From contig JABMPR010000313.1 in the NCBI GenBank assembly GCA_013202895.1, forward strand, positions 1 through 36,948: a DNA stretch of 36,948 nt, written 5' to 3'. This DNA is from a bacterium (GTDB lineage: Bacteria > Fidelibacterota > UBA8477 > JABMPR01). Positions within the stretch are counted from its first letter, which is position 1. Every line of letters starts with the position of its first letter. A model generated the notes under the pieces. The model saw only the letters and a list, made by a program, of their open reading frames with translations, ran no database searches and was not told the DNA's origin. Positions 3,751 to 36,948 of this stretch are shown piece by piece. Made by a program: the position numbers and the translations under genes.

Positions 3751-3844
3751 GATTAACTCCTGTACTGGTTTTACCCGAGCTCATTTTTAACAAATAGTTT
3801 AAGGGTCAACGTTTTACTGGCAACTTGTGTTCCAGCCATATTTT

Positions 3845-4981
3845 CTATCCGAGATCATTCATTATACTTAAGACCTGTTCTACTTCTTCTGGTGTGTTGT
3901 AATAATGAGGAGCAATACGCAACCCACCTCCTCGGAGTGAAAGATTTACTCCGGCGGCAGTTAATCCTTCATATATCCTTTCATTACTGGCTTTATCCTT
4001 ATGTGAAAATACAAAGATACTACCTATCTCATTTTTATCAAAATCATACATCTTTGAATAATTGGATTCTTCGAGACCATACTCAAATTGGTTTAAAAGA
4101 TTGTGAACATGCATATAGATACTATTGATGCCGCAATCCAGCAGTAGCTCTGTGGCCTTCTCAGCCCCTACCATACTGGGGGCATTAAATGCACCTAATT
4201 CAAACCTTCTAGCATCTGGACTCAGATCCTGTTCAAAATTCCCAAAGTCCACCGGATCCAGGTGACCCATATACCCTCGATATGTCAACTTTAGTTTGGA
4301 CTGCAGTTCTTCAGTTAAATAAATAAACCCGGTTCCCAGAGGTGACATCATCCATTTATGACCACCCACTGCCATAAAATCAATACCAAGTTCCAGAACA
4401 TCAGTGGGAATGACACCCAGGGATTGGATGGCATCCACGGAAAAGATAATATTGTGCTTATGACATAATTCTGAAAATGCTTTTACATCAGCTTGATAGC
4501 CCGTTAGATACTGAATGCTGCTAAGGGAGATGAGTCGGGTCGAAGGTCGGATAGCGGCTTCAAATAGTCCTGGAGTAACTTTTCCATCCTTACCTGCAAC
4601 GAATTCAACTTCCACACCTCTATCTCTTAAACCGAGAAATGGCATAACGTTGGATGGAAACTCATCTGCATACAGAAGAATGTGGTCTCCAGCTTGCCAG
4701 CTCAGACCTGTAGCCAGAATGTTAATCCCGGTAACTGTATTAGCCATCAACCCTATCCGTCCCACTGGTGCTCCAATCAAACGTGAATAATTCTGGCGTA
4801 AACCTTCCATGTGTTCGACCGCAATATCCCAGGTGGCAGGGTTTCCATTTCGACGATGTTCAAAATATTCATCCATAGCATTTACTACGGGTCTCGATAG
4901 AGGTGCATATGCAGCGTGATTAAAAAAGATGCGTTGGCCGGCAACATCAAAGAAAGCTCGAAATTCTTTCTGGGTTATCAT
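3845..4981 (-). CDS. Class V PLP-dependent aminotransferase (NifS/isopenicillin-N-epimerase-like)
   Basis: This is a 378-residue fold-type I PLP enzyme. It has the class V signature: Asp183 and Gln186 in SVDAIQS hold the cofactor ring, and HKW carries the Schiff-base lysine Lys209, followed by the glycine-rich PLGTGFIYL. The N-terminal FFNHAAYAPLS and the C-terminal LRGGGLRIAPHYYNTPEE are typical. I see no flexible-loop cysteine of the sort needed for a cysteine desulfurase, so SufS/IscS activity is unlikely; a transaminase, epimerase or lyase role is more probable. It is cytoplasmic. It sits 30 bases downstream of the HMA-like lipoprotein gene, probably in the same transcript as the M1 aminopeptidase. 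The substrate is not inferable. Confidence 0.88.
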   Translation of the reverse strand: MITQKEFRAFFDVAGQRIFFNHAAYAPLSRPVVNAMDEYFEHRRNGNPATWDIAVEHMEGLRQNYSRLIGAPVGRIGLMANTVTGINILATGLSWQAGDHILLYADEFPSNVMPFLGLRDRGVEVEFVAGKDGKVTPGLFEAAIRPSTRLISLSSIQYLTGYQADVKAFSELCHKHNIIFSVDAIQSLGVIPTDVLELGIDFMAVGGHKWMMSPLGTGFIYLTEELQSKLKLTYRGYMGHLDPVDFGNFEQDLSPDARRFELGAFNAPSMVGAEKATELLLDCGINSIYMHVHNLLNQFEYGLEESNYSKMYDFDKNEIGSIFVFSHKDKASNERIYEGLTAAGVNLSLRGGGLRIAPHYYNTPEEVEQVLSIMNDLG

Positions 4982-29803: not shown

Positions 29804-31246
29804 TTACTTGTATTGGAATTCAGCAACCATGGTGGATTGTGGTTCCACCGAAATCGTAAAAAATTGGCTATTGTTAGCTTCATCATGGCGCAGTTTAAGT
29901 TCCATATCAACAGTTTCTACTACATCGCGCTGACCAAGTTCAACAGAAAAAAGCTCAGGTGAGTGAGAGGCGACAGCCCCAGTGAGTTCCAGTGACCGCC
30001 GGGCACTACTTATGTTGATCTGTATTGATTTGGCGCTCTCATCCTGATTGCATACAGTTAGCACAAGCTTTTCACCATTGTCAAATGCCAGCGCATTAAA
30101 ATTATGTTGGGGATCGTACGAAGCCTTCACTACAGAGGCATTATCAGGAATACGCTTCATCAAGTTCGCAAGTAGCGTAAATACTGGTTTTGCCTCACCG
30201 TTTAAATCCAGCAATCCCCAGGACTGTTTTTTAAATTTCACATCAGCAGGTGCATCATACATCTGATAAATAAAGGGGATTACCGCCGCTTGCTTTAACA
30301 AATCGAGCGTGTTTGAATAAACTCTCAATGCGTAGGGCATTGTAAAGCTCGCGCTGTAATAATAAGTCTTAAATGTACTCAAATTACCCTGCTGGTCATA
30401 AGCACCTGGATCGGGGTATTGGATTTTTCCAAAATTAGTTTCTGTACTTGCATATTCTGAAACAAAGATTGGTTTTCTGGATTCGATGGTGTCCAAATAT
30501 TCGGTGAGTTGATTGAAGGCCACACTCAGATTTTCATCGTCAATTCGGTTTTCCCACATTTGAACAGTCCAGAAATCAAGCGTTTCGAAGACTTGCTCAT
30601 CCAGATCCATATACCATGTTTCCATATCTCCTGAAATTCCTGGAGTGGAAAGTCCCGGTCCAACAATCCCAACCTGATCAAATCCCCTGAGAGTCAACTC
30701 TTCCTTAGTTGCATGTACAAGTGCATTATATGTATCTGAAGACATGGGTAGCGAATCGCCCGGGGCAATATCCGGAACATCTAACAGCTCAATATAATCA
30801 GCCGGTACTTCCTGATAGAGCAATTCATCTACTTCCTCAGCCCACCACCCGGCGAAACCTTCAATATCTACCAATTGACCATATTCATTGGTGAAATTAG
30901 CAGGGATAGCATCCAGACTATAAATCCATTTTATGTGTAGCCTTTGGGTGGATCCTCTTAAAGCCAGTATGTCGTCCCAGTTATCACTCACTCGCTTGAC
31001 TCTAATATATTTGACTCCGAGTTCATTAAAGGTCTGGAGTGCCTTCAGTCGGCGACTATAAAAACTAATGGGAACATTGGCTCCCATGCCCTCGAACTTT
31101 CCCAGCTCAGTACTTAGATCAATTTCCACCGGGATATATTCCCCTTTTTTCCGATCACCAAAAAAACTACAGGACCACATTAAATTATAAATAAGGAACA
31201 ATATTATTGATTTTGCTAGGAGCTTGGAAAATCGTTCGGATGGCAT
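29804..31246 (-). CDS. Glycosidase-fold lipoprotein (GH clan A-like), catalytic acid/base replaced
   Basis: This 480-residue exported protein has a signal ending in WSC (Cys26), so it is probably a lipoprotein. The middle is a TIM barrel of GH clan A type: FEGMGANVPISFY (51-63), GVKYIRVKRV (77-86), then PADYIELLDVPDIAPG (148-163), VGIVGPGLS (192-200) and KPIFVSEYAST (258-268). In this clan the fourth strand normally ends in NEP, with Glu as acid/base; here it reads DVP (156-158), so Val157 replaces it. Glu264 is at the nucleophile position on strand seven. A C-terminal beta-sandwich follows from about 385. The start could also be a GTG at 31264. Whether it hydrolyses or only binds sugar is open. 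Confidence 0.72.
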   Translation of the reverse strand: MPSERFSKLLAKSIILFLIYNLMWSCSFFGDRKKGEYIPVEIDLSTELGKFEGMGANVPISFYSRRLKALQTFNELGVKYIRVKRVSDNWDDILALRGSTQRLHIKWIYSLDAIPANFTNEYGQLVDIEGFAGWWAEEVDELLYQEVPADYIELLDVPDIAPGDSLPMSSDTYNALVHATKEELTLRGFDQVGIVGPGLSTPGISGDMETWYMDLDEQVFETLDFWTVQMWENRIDDENLSVAFNQLTEYLDTIESRKPIFVSEYASTETNFGKIQYPDPGAYDQQGNLSTFKTYYYSASFTMPYALRVYSNTLDLLKQAAVIPFIYQMYDAPADVKFKKQSWGLLDLNGEAKPVFTLLANLMKRIPDNASVVKASYDPQHNFNALAFDNGEKLVLTVCNQDESAKSIQINISSARRSLELTGAVASHSPELFSVELGQRDVVETVDMELKLRHDEANNSQFFTISVEPQSTMVAEFQYK

Positions 31247-31264
31247 GGATTTAATTTCAACCAC

Positions 31265-31459
31265 CCAAGCAAGGAATCAACTAAAACATGTCCTACTCAG
31301 AAATTATTACGAACTCTTATGGATTATGCCAACATGAATTTCAGTTGGATGTTTGTGAATTTATTGATGGTCAGCCAATTGTGTGACCAGTGTTGACAAT
31401 GGGGATGTGTAATTTAGCTGGATTAAAAACCAGACTTACCTTCAGGGTCAGAAATGAAC
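31265..31459. other. Intergenic spacer between the glycosidase-like and patatin genes
   Basis: This 195-base spacer holds no gene or clear terminator that I can support. It probably carries the promoter of the glycosidase-like lipoprotein gene on the - strand. Confidence 0.5.
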
Positions 31460-32446
31460 TCAGTTTTTTATTCGCTCAAGTTCCTTTTTTGTCTCTTCGT
31501 AGCCTTTCTCGATAGCAATTTCAGCTTCCAAAAAGTTCCAGGCTGCCAGACCTGTACTCACGTTGATCAACACATCTGGTTGAGCTATCTCAACTTGCGT
31601 AGCTGCAATGAGTGCCATTGAAAGTATTACTGTCTCATGAGCAATTTCTGCCAGATTGGGTTTTCCGGCGGTGTACCAGGGTTCATTTGACCTGGGGATT
31701 CTCCAGGTTGATTTGCTGCTCTCGAGATCATCCCCGTGCAGATAGGTAAAAGTCTCCTTTTGATTCATGCTATCAGGGAAGGCCAGAACGTTTACTGCAA
31801 TGATGTAGTCAGCACCCATGCTACGGACCACATCAATGGGCACAGGATCTATCATACCACCATCAACCAGAATACGGTCACCAAAAGACATGGGGTTGAA
31901 TAAAATTGGGATAGAGGAACTGGCTCGGGCTGCATTAGCCAGGCTGCCCTGATTAATGACGTAGAGATCGCCTTTTAAAATATCAACAGTGGTTGCGGCA
32001 AAAGGAATCGGCAGATCTTCAATTTTTTTATTTCCGTACAAATCCTCTAAAAAGGCTTTGATCTTCTGACCATCGATAAACCCTCGCGTAGGAAAAACTG
32101 GATCCAATAAATGGAGGACATCGATCCAGTTTGAGTTTAGGGCAATCTCTAAAAGGGTATCCGGGCTGAGACCAGCAGCATAACTTCCACCTATGATGGC
32201 ACCCATGCTGCTCCCGGCAATCATATCCACCCTGACGCCAGATTCTTCAAGAGCTTTGAGGACACCAATGTGTGCGAATCCCTTGGCAGCACCGGCTCCC
32301 AAAGCCAGACCAATTTTAAAATCCTGTTTGGCTTTGCCCTGAAGAACCAGCCGAAATCGATTATCCAAATCAGGTGGATTTAGTGCTGCTGCAGTGGATA
32401 CTCCTGCAAGAAAAAGGCTAAAAACAATTTTAAGAACTTGTACGAT
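31460..32446 (-). CDS. Exported patatin-like phospholipase (RssA type)
   Basis: This serine lipid acyl hydrolase has an oxyanion loop GAGAAKG, the nucleophile motif GSSMG (Ser80 from this start) and the catalytic DGG (Asp195). Homologues cleave acyl chains from phospholipids. The first conventional start codon is a TTG at 32368, just before DNRFRLVL, but the frame continues upstream without a stop into a convincing signal peptide (VQVLKIVFSLFLAG, then VSTAAA). The only start-like codon at its head is ATC at 32446, five bases after AAAGG. I therefore propose a rare ATC start; a sequencing change of an ATG is the alternative. The upstream nuclease stop is in the same frame, 12 bases earlier. 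Confidence 0.78.
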   Translation of the reverse strand: MVQVLKIVFSLFLAGVSTAAALNPPDLDNRFRLVLQGKAKQDFKIGLALGAGAAKGFAHIGVLKALEESGVRVDMIAGSSMGAIIGGSYAAGLSPDTLLEIALNSNWIDVLHLLDPVFPTRGFIDGQKIKAFLEDLYGNKKIEDLPIPFAATTVDILKGDLYVINQGSLANAARASSSIPILFNPMSFGDRILVDGGMIDPVPIDVVRSMGADYIIAVNVLAFPDSMNQKETFTYLHGDDLESSKSTWRIPRSNEPWYTAGKPNLAEIAHETVILSMALIAATQVEIAQPDVLINVSTGLAAWNFLEAEIAIEKGYEETKKELERIKN

Positions 32447-32458
32447 GCCAGCCTTTAA

Positions 32459-33208
32459 TTAATCATAGATATTATTCAGGATTGCCGCCAGATGAAAGCC
32501 ACCTTTAAGGAGTCTGTCTTCCATTAATTCGCGGTTTTTGTAAATGTATTTCCAGGACAGATTTCCATTTCCTATGTCATAAACCTGTTCATGGAGCGAA
32601 CGCGATTCGTTGATAAATCCTACGACATTGGGATCCATAAGTATGGTTTTTTGCTCTGGGGTCATACCCAATTGGATCTGTTGGGCATATTCGGTGTAGC
32701 TATATTGCATATTATCAATCATCTGTGAATCCCAAACCCGGTGCAGGTTGGTTTCCTCCCTGAACCAGGTGACATCCACACTGTTTCCACCCCTGTCAGT
32801 TCCGTTACCTACATGCAGGGGTTGGTGAAGATCACCCACAATATGCACAACAAAACGCAGAACATCGATGTGGTCCTTTTTACCTAGTATTCCCCCTTTT
32901 AACATTTTCGAGAATTCATTGAGCTTCTGGACAGCACGCCCCCCGGCTTCAGGACCCTCATAACCCTTGCCTTCAATAATTGTGCAGTAATGCCAGTCAT
33001 GAGAATGATCCCAGGTAGAATCAGATTTAATATCATCTGCCCAGTTGGCGATTCTGGCAAGATCTGAGTGTCCTAAAAATAGTGAAATTTGCTCTTTAGC
33101 TTTTGGGCTAAGATTTTCCTCAGCGATTATACCAATTACTCGATGGCCTGTTTTCCCCCAGCCAAAGACGAGTGTGGCGCTGAGCATTAAGATAATGAAC
33201 TGTCGCAC
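32459..33208 (-). CDS. Secreted S1/P1 family nuclease
   Basis: This is a 249-residue zinc-dependent endonuclease/3'-nucleotidase acting on single-stranded nucleic acids outside the cytoplasm. The signal peptide ends before Trp17, the N-terminal Trp that itself binds zinc in this family. The other trinuclear zinc ligands are visible: His22, Asp58, His73, His122, Asp126, His132, His156 and Asp160, with family spacing (HIVGDLHQPLH and NLHRVWD). It starts at GTG, with GGAG upstream. It precedes the patatin gene in the same frame, and together they suggest scavenging of phosphate or carbon from nucleic acids and lipids. Confidence 0.93.
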   Translation of the reverse strand: MRQFIILMLSATLVFGWGKTGHRVIGIIAEENLSPKAKEQISLFLGHSDLARIANWADDIKSDSTWDHSHDWHYCTIIEGKGYEGPEAGGRAVQKLNEFSKMLKGGILGKKDHIDVLRFVVHIVGDLHQPLHVGNGTDRGGNSVDVTWFREETNLHRVWDSQMIDNMQYSYTEYAQQIQLGMTPEQKTILMDPNVVGFINESRSLHEQVYDIGNGNLSWKYIYKNRELMEDRLLKGGFHLAAILNNIYD

Positions 33209-33796: not shown

Positions 33797-33811
33797 TGGC
33801 ACTGCTATTGA
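33797..33811 (+). promoter_or_regulatory. Sigma-54-like promoter of the GcvH/HybA/HybB operon
   Basis: TGGCAC, five bases, then TTGA. The sigma-54 consensus is TGGCAC-N5-TTGC, so the -24 box and the spacing match perfectly and only the last C of the -12 box differs. Transcription would start near 33822, giving a leader of about 20 bases with AAGGAGG at 33831-33837, six bases before the ATG. Sigma-54 control is common for hydrogenase and other anaerobic redox operons. Confidence 0.45.
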
Positions 33812-33843
33812 AATAAATAAGGTGAACAAAAAGGAGGTTCATC

Positions 33844-34554
33844 ATGGTCATATTATTTGTCGTATTATTCGTCGTCATTGCCTTTTCAGTAGGGTGGTAT
33901 CAGGATCGAAGACGACTTGAAGCGATTAGCGCTTCACCTATTGTTAAAAAACAAGCCTACCAATTCAAGATAGAAAATCTGAAGATTCCAGCGGGAATCT
34001 ATTTTAGCCCTACTCATAGCTGGGCTCATTTGCAGACCAACGGTCGTGCAAGAATTGGAGTTGACGCATTTCTCCATGGACTCACAGGTGTGCTTTCGCA
34101 GGTGTCTGTTCCTGATCAGGATAAAACTATCCAACAAGGTGATCCATTATTTAGAATTATCCATGAAGGTAAGAAATTGGTGATCTCGGCTCCTGTATCA
34201 GGAAAAGTAAAAGCGATTAATTCGGAAGCCCTCCAAAATATGCGAATGATTCATCGCGATCCTTACTCTACGGGTTGGTTAATCGAGATGGAGCCTGCCA
34301 ATTGGGAAAAAGAAACAAACCGCCTGTATCTTGGTCAACGCACTACATCCTGGCTTAAAGATGAAATGGCGCGCATTCGTGATTTTTTTGCTCATTCTTT
34401 TATCTCCCCTGATTCTGCAAGCGGGTTGGTTCTGCTTCAGGAAGGTGGTGATATCGCCCAGGATGCCCTGGCCTTTGCCGAGAATGGATTGTGGGAATCT
34501 TTCCAAAAAATCATTCTGGACCAGGCCAATCTTGAATTAAAAGTCAGCTCTTGA
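33844..34554 (+). CDS. Membrane-anchored GcvH-like (lipoyl-domain fold) protein
   Basis: This 236-residue protein has one N-terminal membrane helix (1-18), a linker, and a GcvH-fold domain (about 48-155): IPAGIYFSPTHSWAHL corresponds to the GcvH HEW region, then SAPVSGKVKAIN (115-126) and RDPYSTGWLIEMEP (138-151) match the APVSG and DPYGxGW segments. In GcvH the lipoylated Lys lies eight residues before Pro of PVSG; here that residue is Gly109, with lysines at 110 and 111. The C-terminal 80 residues are an extension of unknown fold. No glycine-cleavage genes are near; the neighbours are iron-sulfur and NrfD proteins, so it probably serves electron transfer or complex assembly. AAGGAGG gives a strong start. 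Confidence 0.8.
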   Translation: MVILFVVLFVVIAFSVGWYQDRRRLEAISASPIVKKQAYQFKIENLKIPAGIYFSPTHSWAHLQTNGRARIGVDAFLHGLTGVLSQVSVPDQDKTIQQGDPLFRIIHEGKKLVISAPVSGKVKAINSEALQNMRMIHRDPYSTGWLIEMEPANWEKETNRLYLGQRTTSWLKDEMARIRDFFAHSFISPDSASGLVLLQEGGDIAQDALAFAENGLWESFQKIILDQANLELKVSS

Positions 34555-34613
34555 ACCTGTCAATAATCTGAAGCCTGCAAAACGTATAATTACCGTAGAG
34601 AGGATCATTAAGC

Positions 34614-35489
34614 ATGTCTCTAGATCGTCGAGAATTCTTAAAAACCCTGGGCGTTGCTGGTGCAAGCCTAAGTGGTGTATCTGTATTTGGGAAATCAACA
34701 ACAGAGTCTGAAAGTGAAGAATATTACGCCATCCTCCATGATATAACTTTGTGTGAGGGATGTCAGGAATGTGAGGTTGCTTGCGCCGCTGCTAATAAGC
34801 TGCCGGCCCTCGCAGATGATGATTATCCAGATAGCTCTATCAAGCGTGAGCTGAAACCAGATCGATATTCAGTTATTAACGCAGTTGAAACCTCAGCTGG
34901 TGAGGTCTACACCAAACAACAGTGCATGCATTGCGCTCAACCCGCTTGCGCTTCTGCCTGTTTAACCAAAGCCATGGAAAAACATGTTGAGGGTCCCATT
35001 ACCTGGAATGGAGATAAATGTATGGGGTGCCGTTTTTGTATGCTTTCCTGCCCATTTAATATGCCAAAATTCGAGTATGATAGTAATAATCCAAAGATTG
35101 GTAAATGCCAGATGTGCTTCACAAGATTGAAGGAAGGTGGAATTCCAGCCTGCGTTGAAAATTGCCCAGCCGAAGCACTCATCTTTGGAAAACGAAGCGA
35201 CATCCTGAGGGAAGCCCACCGCAGAATTATGGATGACCCCAGCAATTATGTGGACCATGTCTATGGGGAGTTTGAAGCAGGTGGAACCTCCTGGTTAAAC
35301 CTGTCGCCCGTTCCGTTTGAAGAGCTGGGGTTTAACACTGAGATAGATAATCGACCATACCCAGAACTCACAAAGGGTTTCCTTTATAGTGTGCCCTCTG
35401 TGTTTGTTTTATGGCCAGCCCTCCTGCTTGGATTGAGAGAAGCTACAAATCGTGATACGGATGATATCGCTGGGGAGGATGAAAAATGA
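34614..35489 (+). CDS. Tat-exported 4x[4Fe-4S] ferredoxin-type subunit, HybA-like
   Basis: This is a 291-residue periplasmic electron-transfer subunit. It begins with a Tat signal (DRREFLKTLG, residues 4-13). Sixteen cysteines form four 4Fe-4S sites: 47/50/53/57, 104/107/112/116, 136/139/142/146 and 165/168/180/184. A hydrophobic segment near residues 255-274 should anchor it in the membrane, the arrangement of HybA of hydrogenase-2 and unlike soluble DmsB/NrfC proteins. It would pass electrons between a periplasmic enzyme and the quinone-binding NrfD-type partner encoded next, whose start overlaps its stop as ATGA. AGAGGA precedes the ATG by ten bases. The catalytic subunit is not in the window. 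Confidence 0.9.
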   Translation: MSLDRREFLKTLGVAGASLSGVSVFGKSTTESESEEYYAILHDITLCEGCQECEVACAAANKLPALADDDYPDSSIKRELKPDRYSVINAVETSAGEVYTKQQCMHCAQPACASACLTKAMEKHVEGPITWNGDKCMGCRFCMLSCPFNMPKFEYDSNNPKIGKCQMCFTRLKEGGIPACVENCPAEALIFGKRSDILREAHRRIMDDPSNYVDHVYGEFEAGGTSWLNLSPVPFEELGFNTEIDNRPYPELTKGFLYSVPSVFVLWPALLLGLREATNRDTDDIAGEDEK

Positions 35490-36724
35490 GTGAACAAATC
35501 CTGGCAAAAGTGCTGCAGCCCGCTCCAAATCGATGGAAATTTCTGCTCTCTGAATTGAGACCCAAGGGAAAGCTGCTTACTCCCTTTAATATCATTTCCA
35601 TACCCGTCATATTGCTGGGTTTAGTATTAATCATTATCCGTTTCTGGAAGGGTCTTGGGTCCATTACAAATCTTTCTCAGGATGTCCCCTGGGGTTTATG
35701 GATAGGTTTTGATGTGGTCACTGGAGTCGCATTTGCAGGGGGCGCATATGTCTTGACCTTTATGGTTTATATCCTCAGAATGGAGAAATATCATTCCATT
35801 GTCCGGGCCACCGTACTAAATGGTTTTCTTGCCTATCTTTTTTATGCCGGTGCCCTTTTACTTGATCTGGGGCGGCCATGGAATGTCATCAATCCTATTA
35901 TTGGAAATTCCTTTGGTACGAGCAGCGTTCTCTTTCTGGTTGCCTGGCATTTTATGCTCTACATGCTCGCTGAATTGATAGAATTCTCTCCTGCCATCGC
36001 TGAATGGCTAGGGGCTGAACGAGCTCGCAGAATTCTTAAGAGTCTAACCATCGGAGCGGTAATTTTTGGAATCACACTCTCTACCCTGCACCAATCTGGT
36101 CTGGGTGCCCTGTTTCTTATGGCTAAGGGCAAAATCCATCCCCTCTGGTACTCAGAATTCATCCCGGTTCTATTTTTTGTTTCGAGTATTTTTGCCGGGC
36201 TTTCCATGGTCATTTTTGAGGGTTCAATAACACAACGCGTTTTTGCTCACCAACTGTCCAGAGGTAGTCATAAAACCCATAATGAGATTCTCAGAGGACT
36301 GGCCAAGATTTGTTCGGTGGCAATGTTTGCTTATTTATTTCTAAAGATTATCGATCTGATTCATGGACATAATTTGAGTCATTTATCTACATCCTGGGGG
36401 GCCTGGTATCTCGTCGAAATGGTCGGCTTTGTCATTCTTCCTCTATTTCTATTTATCAGAGGTGTGAAAACAGGTGGCCCATTTATCATCAAAGCTGCAT
36501 CATTTATTACACTCATCGGAATCATCCTAAACAGATTAAATATCTCCGTCATAGGATTTAACTGGGATGCTGTGGATCGTTACATCCCAACCTGGATGGA
36601 GTTTGAAGTGACCTTTGCCGTTCTCTTCCTGGAAATCTGGATCTTTCGCTGGGTATTGCATCGTTTACCAGTCCTTCGCCCCATTGAAGAAGTCGTAAAA
36701 TCCCAAACCATTGATAGGAGTTAA
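35486..36724 (+). CDS. NrfD/HybB-type integral membrane quinone-interacting subunit
   Basis: This 412-residue protein has about ten membrane segments and is HybB/NrfD-like. Recognisable parts are DVPWGLWIGFDVVTGVAFAGGAYVLT (68-93), GALLLDLGRPW, WHFMLYMLAELIEF and TLSTLHQSGLGALF. In this family the protein exchanges electrons between quinone and an iron-sulfur partner on the periplasmic side, sometimes with proton movement. Its ATG overlaps the HybA-like stop, so the two are translationally coupled. One base separates its stop from the next GcvH-like gene. It resembles HybB more than the shorter NrfD/PsrC. Direction of electron flow is not known. Confidence 0.92.
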   Translation: MSEQILAKVLQPAPNRWKFLLSELRPKGKLLTPFNIISIPVILLGLVLIIIRFWKGLGSITNLSQDVPWGLWIGFDVVTGVAFAGGAYVLTFMVYILRMEKYHSIVRATVLNGFLAYLFYAGALLLDLGRPWNVINPIIGNSFGTSSVLFLVAWHFMLYMLAELIEFSPAIAEWLGAERARRILKSLTIGAVIFGITLSTLHQSGLGALFLMAKGKIHPLWYSEFIPVLFFVSSIFAGLSMVIFEGSITQRVFAHQLSRGSHKTHNEILRGLAKICSVAMFAYLFLKIIDLIHGHNLSHLSTSWGAWYLVEMVGFVILPLFLFIRGVKTGGPFIIKAASFITLIGIILNRLNISVIGFNWDAVDRYIPTWMEFEVTFAVLFLEIWIFRWVLHRLPVLRPIEEVVKSQTIDRS

Positions 36725-36725
36725 A

Positions 36726-36948
36726 ATGATGGAAGCATTTAGTTATGTAAACATTTTCTCAACCAAGGGAATTGAATACCTCATCGTTATCAGTTTCTTT
36801 ATTGTCGTCGTTCCCTTCTGGCGATTTCTAAAAGAAACGGACATGCCATTGCCTTCTATGGCTGCTATTCGTCTTCCCAAAGGGGTCTTTTTTGATACCA
36901 CTCATACCTGGGCGTTTTTGGAGACCGCTGGTAAGATCAGGGTGGGAG
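36726..36948 (+). CDS. Second membrane-anchored GcvH-like protein (3' end beyond window)
   Basis: The frame runs open to the window end; 74 residues are visible. It starts at tandem ATGs (36726 and 36729) one base after the HybB-like stop, with AGGAG upstream. A membrane helix spans about residues 17-34. The following LPKGVFFDTTHTWAFLETAGKIRVG parallels IPAGIYFSPTHSW...GRARIG of the first GcvH-like protein and the HEW-to-VG segment of GcvH. The lipoyl-site region lies beyond the window, so its lysine cannot be checked. It makes the operon symmetrical: two GcvH-like proteins flank the HybA-like and HybB-like pair. Confidence 0.78.
   Translation, partial: MMEAFSYVNIFSTKGIEYLIVISFFIVVVPFWRFLKETDMPLPSMAAIRLPKGVFFDTTHTWAFLETAGKIRVG

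Follow-up and report, generated by a model that had tools for sequence, protein, structure and literature searches.

A conserved gene cassette encoding GcvH-fold proteins with predicted membrane anchors, an HmcB-HmcC-like pair and a two-component system

Bacteria use kinases for redox sensing and NrfD-type complexes for respiration. Here we describe a conserved set of genes, referred to as the cassette, in which genes for both stand together with genes for GcvH-fold proteins. It lies at the end of a 36,948-nucleotide stretch of DNA, the whole of contig JABMPR010000313.1 (the window; C290 in our numbering), from a genome that is 87.7% complete. The reading that we prefer, and that we regard as evenly balanced, is that the gene products form an active electron-transfer complex linked to quinone, with cytoplasmic GcvH subunits that tie it to a two-component system of its own. 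If this is true, a conserved unit would join respiration and signalling via a recruited GcvH fold, which would be a new linkage. No description of this gene set was found in the literature, judging by titles and abstract openings.

Among the closest described systems, Hmc of Desulfovibrio (hmcABCDEF) has a small transmembrane protein encoded after HmcC. The locus shares with Hmc the HmcB-HmcC pair, for which HmcB and HmcC are the best NCBIfam models, and in GcvH2 it has a possible counterpart of this small protein; some relatives also have a periplasmic multiheme cytochrome as in Hmc. It differs in that its HmcB and HmcC stay below the equivalog cut-offs, and in having GcvH-fold proteins and a two-component pair instead. 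A 16-heme HmcA, HmcE and HmcF were not recognised among the open reading frames (ORFs) of the window end and of the contig that continues it (C44), which were read by eye, with no hidden Markov model run on the genome. Components of Hmc are described in part of PMC10924467, which reports a tail-anchored iron-sulfur protein paired with a HybB-like quinol oxidase: the two occur alongside octaheme cytochromes, within Hmc and together with an Fe-Fe hydrogenase. GcvH proteins are not mentioned in section 12 of that paper. Hmc in Desulfovibrio alaskensis is treated in passages of PMC4215793.

HybA and HybB of E. coli hydrogenase-2 also combine a tail-anchored iron-sulfur protein with an NrfD-family subunit, but the cassette has no adjacent HybO or HybC. 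Recruitment of GcvH-like proteins to a redox pathway is described for LbpA of Hdr-like sulfur oxidation (in part of PMC6067878), whereas the proteins described here appear membrane-anchored, are encoded with HmcBC and a kinase, and would carry lipoate only putatively. The shdr genes were not recognised on reading the C44 ORFs, for which no sHdr model was run. The barrel-sandwich domains of NqrA and RnfC have a lipoyl-like fold within membrane quinone or electron-transport complexes and gave weak Pfam and NCBIfam matches, but the cassette proteins match GcvH far better.

A first-pass annotation of the window had placed four genes in a single run, GcvH-like, HybA-like, HybB-like and GcvH-like. 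All four are present at those positions, with a true ATGA overlap at 35486-35489 and a true gap of one base at 36725. The reverse complement of C44 opens with the final 14 bases of the window, an exact overlap in the GcvH2 frame, and the unbroken relatives L041, L042 and L160 align continuously through the C290-C44 join, over 3,841 to 3,852 columns and at about 75% identity. Therefore, the window continues on C44, where the remainder of GcvH2 is followed by GcvH3, a sensor kinase, a sigma-54 response regulator and an archaemetzincin. The features are as follows, with positions on C44 given in the coordinates of L004.

33797..33812, plus strand: sigma-54-like element TGGCAC-N5-TTGAA upstream of the run (pattern search)
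33844..34554, plus strand: GcvH1, with predicted N-terminal transmembrane segment, GcvH fold and conserved C-terminal extension (PF01597, transmembrane prediction, AlphaFold2)
34614..35489, plus strand: HmcB/HybA-like protein, tail-anchored by prediction, with a twin-arginine start and four four-Cys ferredoxin-type motifs (motifs, NCBIfam)
35486..36724, plus strand: HmcC/HybB-like NrfD-family membrane subunit with 10 transmembrane-like segments (PF03916, NCBIfam)
36726..36948, plus strand: 5' part of GcvH2, with the remainder on C44 at L004 10263-10752, minus strand
L004 9468-10181, minus strand: GcvH3, with a Cys-rich N-terminus
L004 5842-6372, minus strand: archaemetzincin, after the regulator (PF07998, Pfam)

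The best 80 of at least 579 relatives from an HmcC scan were kept and form, with our own locus, a set of 81 loci. HmcB and HmcC are present in all 81, GcvH1 in 78, GcvH2 in 79, the kinase in 72 and the regulator in 67; absences are explained by contig ends too near, except for the kinase of L071. The kinase and regulator of L115 precede GcvH1 instead of following GcvH2. The carriers are Neomarinimicrobiota, many groups of Bacteroidota, one member of Chlorobiota and a few unplaced bacteria. Because the gene arrangement recurs in 81 loci, it is not a matter of chance. The idea that GcvH-fold domains were recruited to a membrane electron-transfer complex, put forward in the first-pass annotation, agrees with this survey, in which GcvH-fold genes are conserved with the HmcB/HmcC (HybA/HybB-like) genes, and gcvT and gcvP, the expected neighbours in a glycine cleavage locus, were not recognised among the C44 ORFs. 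The docking of a periplasmic enzyme, proposed along with it, is unlikely given the cytoplasmic location predicted for the GcvH domains. The archaemetzincin gene was found in 64 loci by clustering and, by motif, in 50 of 55 loci with enough room.

To sample relatives more evenly, a GcvH1 profile was run against 247 genomes from the phylum to which L104 belongs. Fifty-eight matched at 1e-20, many of them with ordinary H-proteins; the 33 with a best match of at least 111 bits were taken, and the next one, G243 (99 bits, ordinary length, internal stops), was left out with the 24 below it. The extended GcvH family, present in 33 of 247 genomes of one phylum, is common. Loci were fetched from 32 of the 33, the remaining genome, G229, being that of L104. 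HmcC was in the same cluster in 31 of these 32 further genomes, HmcB in 30 (absent from the stretches taken for L142 and L168) and the kinase in 28 (L136 is cut). Eight stretches, L154-L161, come from the phylum of the window itself (L156 is a 4-kb contig and L161 a 3-kb piece); six of them carry HmcB, HmcC and GcvH, L158 doing so without a kinase. The alignments A1, A2 and A4 contain 35, 39 and 30 chosen rows.

The HmcB-like protein starts with MSLDRREFLK and ends in a hydrophobic tail; its 16 Cys make up four ferredoxin-type motifs. It had been annotated as a twin-arginine translocation (Tat) substrate with four [4Fe-4S] clusters; the twin-arginine start and the four four-Cys motifs agree with this, but the Pfam TAT_signal match was below its cut-off (17.8 bits against 22.7). 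Among 79 HmcB frames of at least 250 residues, 78 have the four Cys motifs and all 79 have the tail. We assigned HmcB to the side opposite GcvH because of the twin-arginine start. The NrfD-like gene belongs to the NrfD family by PF03916 (52.1 bits, cut-off 25.8). On our own proteins, the NCBIfam model HmcB (314.5 bits, cut-off 420) outranked HybA (225.6), and HmcC (393.8 bits, cut-off 550) outranked HybB (258), all four remaining below their cut-offs. Thus the pair is HybA/HybB-like, as first annotated, but the HmcB and HmcC models describe it better.

HmcC shares 28.9% identity with E. coli HybB, and a PDB sequence search with it gave no match at E 0.001. We aligned 120 HmcC rows with HybB of E. 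coli K-12 (one row is a repeat, since the G370 HmcC of the type B architecture described below is in both L146 and L175). HybB Y99, E148 and H184 are kept in all rows and R89 in 117. Substitution of these four residues reduces hydrogen oxidation in E. coli, as reported in part of PMC8076601. From the sequence, we take HmcBC to be a working quinone oxidoreductase module.

GcvH1 has one N-terminal transmembrane-like segment and a GcvH domain (PF01597, 58.7 bits, cut-off 22.2). Its AlphaFold2 model, with a mean predicted local distance difference test score of 84.2, gave a TM-score of 0.91 on the E. coli H-protein as target. It therefore resembles the GcvH of glycine cleavage in fold, and differs from it in the transmembrane anchor, the C-terminal extension, the altered lipoyl hairpin and the neighbours. 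Curated gcvH models did not reach their cut-offs (63.3 bits against 117 and 54.5 against 115.85), and a separate canonical GcvH is encoded in the same genome on contig C31. Genes that match GcvH models need not encode glycine-cleavage proteins. A plasmid search for GcvH1 returned two ordinary gcvH only. In the phylum of the window, L033-L039 hold a second H-protein family with an EAAKMTG/ESAKMTT motif, distinct from the GcvP-linked GcvH.

GcvH2, 232 residues when complete, has the same combination of a transmembrane segment and a GcvH domain, the latter visible only in the C44 portion. An HmcD model matched the transmembrane region of our GcvH2 (E 2.6e-5, 24.1 bits, cut-off 34). We keep GcvH2 as a fusion of HmcD and GcvH only as a lead, the own match being below the cut-off and only 4 of 30 relatives matching at E 0.01 or better. 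The Pfam GcvH match of GcvH3 is weak (16.5 bits, cut-off 22.2). All 24 GcvH3-type sequences examined, our own and 23 relatives, have an N-terminal four-Cys motif (C, about 12 residues, C-x5-C-x2-C, often CIWM...), which is possibly an iron-sulfur or metal site.

Lys and Arg are commoner after than before the transmembrane segment in 67 of 74 GcvH1 (equal in five, less common in two) and in 75 of 77 GcvH2 (equal in two). In addition, 57 of 69 complete GcvH1 relatives have a signal-peptide-like start, a PBP domain, a transmembrane segment and GcvH, in this order; our own gene, six genes cut at contig ends and N-containing sequences were left out of this topology count. The Pfam PBP domain scored 33.0, 23.0 and 21.7 bits in three fused GcvH1 against a cut-off of 27, and searches by sequence and structure, with a profile and with a model of the L043 protein, retrieved PstS proteins and H-proteins. 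The Lys/Arg bias and the PstS-like domain fused ahead of GcvH1 together predict a cytoplasmic position for the GcvH domains. The PstS-like part of L043 (5353-7068) and of 34 other fused GcvH1 contains an invariant D-x-N...E (D232, N234 and E243 in L043) that resembles an EF-hand-type loop.

Pfam found HAMP, HisKA and HATPase domains in our kinase, and a receiver and a sigma-54 interaction domain in our regulator, which is thus of the NtrC type. Heme-type motifs, CxxCH and a second C-x(2-5)-CH, are present in 67 of 69 kinases of at least 450 residues (out of 72), and GAFTGA in 64 of 65 regulators of at least 400 residues (out of 67). The pattern TGGYAY-N5-TTGR was found between -150 and +20 of the GcvH1 start in 64 of 74 loci, against 0.08% in shuffles that preserved single-base content only. 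Before the other genes it was absent (HmcB 0/79, HmcC 0/81, GcvH2 0/79, kinase 0/72) or rare (regulator 2/67). An rpoN gene was above the cut-off in our genome and in 35 of the 40 genomes checked, which represent half of the 80 related cassette loci. Self-regulation through sigma-54 is likely because of the promoter-like element, rpoN and the GAFTGA of the regulator. The promoter pattern has eight sites in our genome: four lie within 250 bases before an ORF of at least 80 residues (one being the operon itself), three are inside a long frame on either strand and one is unclear. The reversed control pattern gave two sites. No regulon is claimed from these eight.

Two architectures can be told apart. 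One, type A, is GcvH1-HmcB-HmcC, optionally GcvH2 and GcvH3, then kinase and NtrC regulator, optionally with archaemetzincin. A second one, type B, was found in 16 loci: HmcB, HmcC, a 13-heme cytochrome, kinase, a receiver-GcvH protein and a transmembrane-receiver-GcvH protein; L151 is a variant without the cytochrome. In total, 17 more distant loci encode 34 receiver-GcvH fusions, one short and one long each. The receiver residues looked for are kept in 33 of the 34, and an N-terminal transmembrane-like segment is present in 16 of the 17 long fusions and in none of the short ones. Pfam detected both receiver and GcvH in all seven fusions submitted. No ORF of the type B stretches scored above 300 bits with the cassette regulator profile; a 455-residue ORF on the opposite strand of L171 matches a receiver weakly. 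Neither the pattern above nor a broader sigma-54 form was found in five testable type B loci. Types A and B occur together in the genomes G370 and G300.

A tree of 53 rows has a supported branch (98/96) that separates GcvH1, GcvH2 and the long fusions from nine ordinary H-proteins. Outside the group so formed are the short fusions, GcvH3 and two N1 proteins that resemble GcvH3, and several rows are very long. The 13-heme cytochrome occurs in 16 of the 17 receiver-fusion loci and also in the type A locus L157. Our genome encodes, on other contigs, two multiheme proteins of about 335 residues that resemble it (278 and 250 bits). Clusters of multiheme genes are present in this genome: L179 (G000:C357:1-9000) holds several, one resembling the type B 13-heme protein, and L180 (G000:C79:9000-21055) has an NtrC-type regulator followed by multiheme, NrfC-like, NrfD-like, Rieske-like, cytochrome b-like and more multiheme genes, named by reading.

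Our preferred reading would work as follows. A periplasmic, tail-anchored HmcB with four [4Fe-4S] clusters and the NrfD-type HmcC would move electrons between the quinone pool and a partner in the periplasm, most likely a multiheme cytochrome c. On the cytoplasmic face, the two transmembrane-anchored GcvH-fold proteins would be adaptors between this complex and the kinase/response-regulator pair, and the strongest argument for such a role is the fusion of this GcvH domain to receivers in the more distant loci. The kinase would read the redox state via its periplasmic heme motifs, and the NtrC-type regulator would switch the operon on through sigma-54. The signal might run either way, the kinase reading the complex as a sensor or controlling it as a regulated enzyme. 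A bolder version, which we offer tentatively and consider rather unlikely, has the GcvH fold switch a respiratory complex under the control of phosphorylation: the kinase would phosphorylate receiver-GcvH, or signal via the GcvH subunits, and so gate HmcC electron flow directly and without transcription. Since no cassette-type NtrC regulator was seen in type B, receiver-GcvH would there be the direct output of the kinase.

Several observations weigh against the preferred reading. Having been chosen as the best HmcC matches, the 81 loci are an uneven sample. An RRxF-like start was found in only 35 of the 79 HmcB frames, and Tat export is putative for most of them. Other channel residues of HybB are changed in the cassette (T63, S95, E133 and E268): T63 is in no row, S95, S105 and E133 are in 0 of 80 cassette loci, and E268 is in almost no row. 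The kinase is less constant than HmcBC and was not seen in L142, L145, L149, L152 and L158; HmcB and HmcC are present in L145, L149 and L152, and neither was seen in L142, which is near a contig end. Therefore, the tie of GcvH to HmcBC is tighter than that to the kinase. L159 has a kinase, a regulator and a GcvH protein with no HmcBC within the 11 kb taken. The promoter pattern was chosen on the same loci where it was counted, and between -200 and +25 in 21 further type A loci it was found in six; the broader form, which admits the classical TTGC, was found in 14, a count without shuffle control. Finally, four of the 40 genomes checked for rpoN gave no match, and one more gave only a fragment.

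An alternative dispenses with direct GcvH-kinase contact: the GcvH proteins would have a purely structural part in an Hmc-like complex, and the two-component pair would only control operon transcription according to the redox state. The sigma-54-like element almost solely before the first gene, the kept R89, Y99, E148 and H184, and the loci that retain GcvH-HmcB-HmcC with no visible kinase all fit this arrangement. We nevertheless find it doubtful, as receiver-GcvH fusions stand beside the kinase where no cassette-family NtrC regulator is seen, suggesting that the kinase acts on the GcvH-bearing protein itself. It is improbable that GcvH acts instead as a redox carrier, with lipoate on its hairpin lysine shuttling electrons between a cytoplasmic dithiol partner and HmcC. 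Lipoate-binding GcvH-like proteins do function in sulfur oxidation according to part of PMC6067878, and a Lys is found one column past the canonical lipoyl position in 74 of 78 GcvH1 (two of the other four being gaps) and 67 of 79 GcvH2, the one in our GcvH1 bordering the hairpin turn in the model. The hairpin is, however, one residue shorter and has lost the canonical context, the lysine is missing from 12 of 79 GcvH2 and from all nine GcvH3, and the long transmembrane-receiver-GcvH fusions vary among K, N and R, several having R or N. Lipoylation is thus possible in some GcvH members, not in general, and a lipoate carrier was rejected as the main role because the lysine counts are not consistent across the family.

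The first-pass annotation had expected a hydrogenase or other periplasmic oxidoreductase downstream, and this was not borne out, since the C44 ORFs show GcvH3, the kinase, the sigma-54 regulator and the archaemetzincin instead. Such a partner might be encoded elsewhere, and HybA and HybB are indeed the next-best NCBIfam models after HmcB and HmcC, but we think this very improbable. The neighbour clusters common to at least 6 of the 81 loci include no recognisable catalytic subunit, and a hydrogenase partner was rejected after a search downstream and genome-wide, which covered NiFe enzymes and not FeFe ones in this 87.7% complete genome. The single NiFe hydrogenase large-subunit gene found, on contig C185, is preceded by a diaphorase-like gene, and its small subunit has no visible export signal. 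The enzyme therefore reads as cytosolic, and we take it to be of group 3b.

Upstream of the operon, the window has three genes on the minus strand (29804-33208), two of which we take to be patatin-like and S1/P1-nuclease-like. In 7 to 8 of the 81 loci, relatives of these genes likewise precede the cassette.

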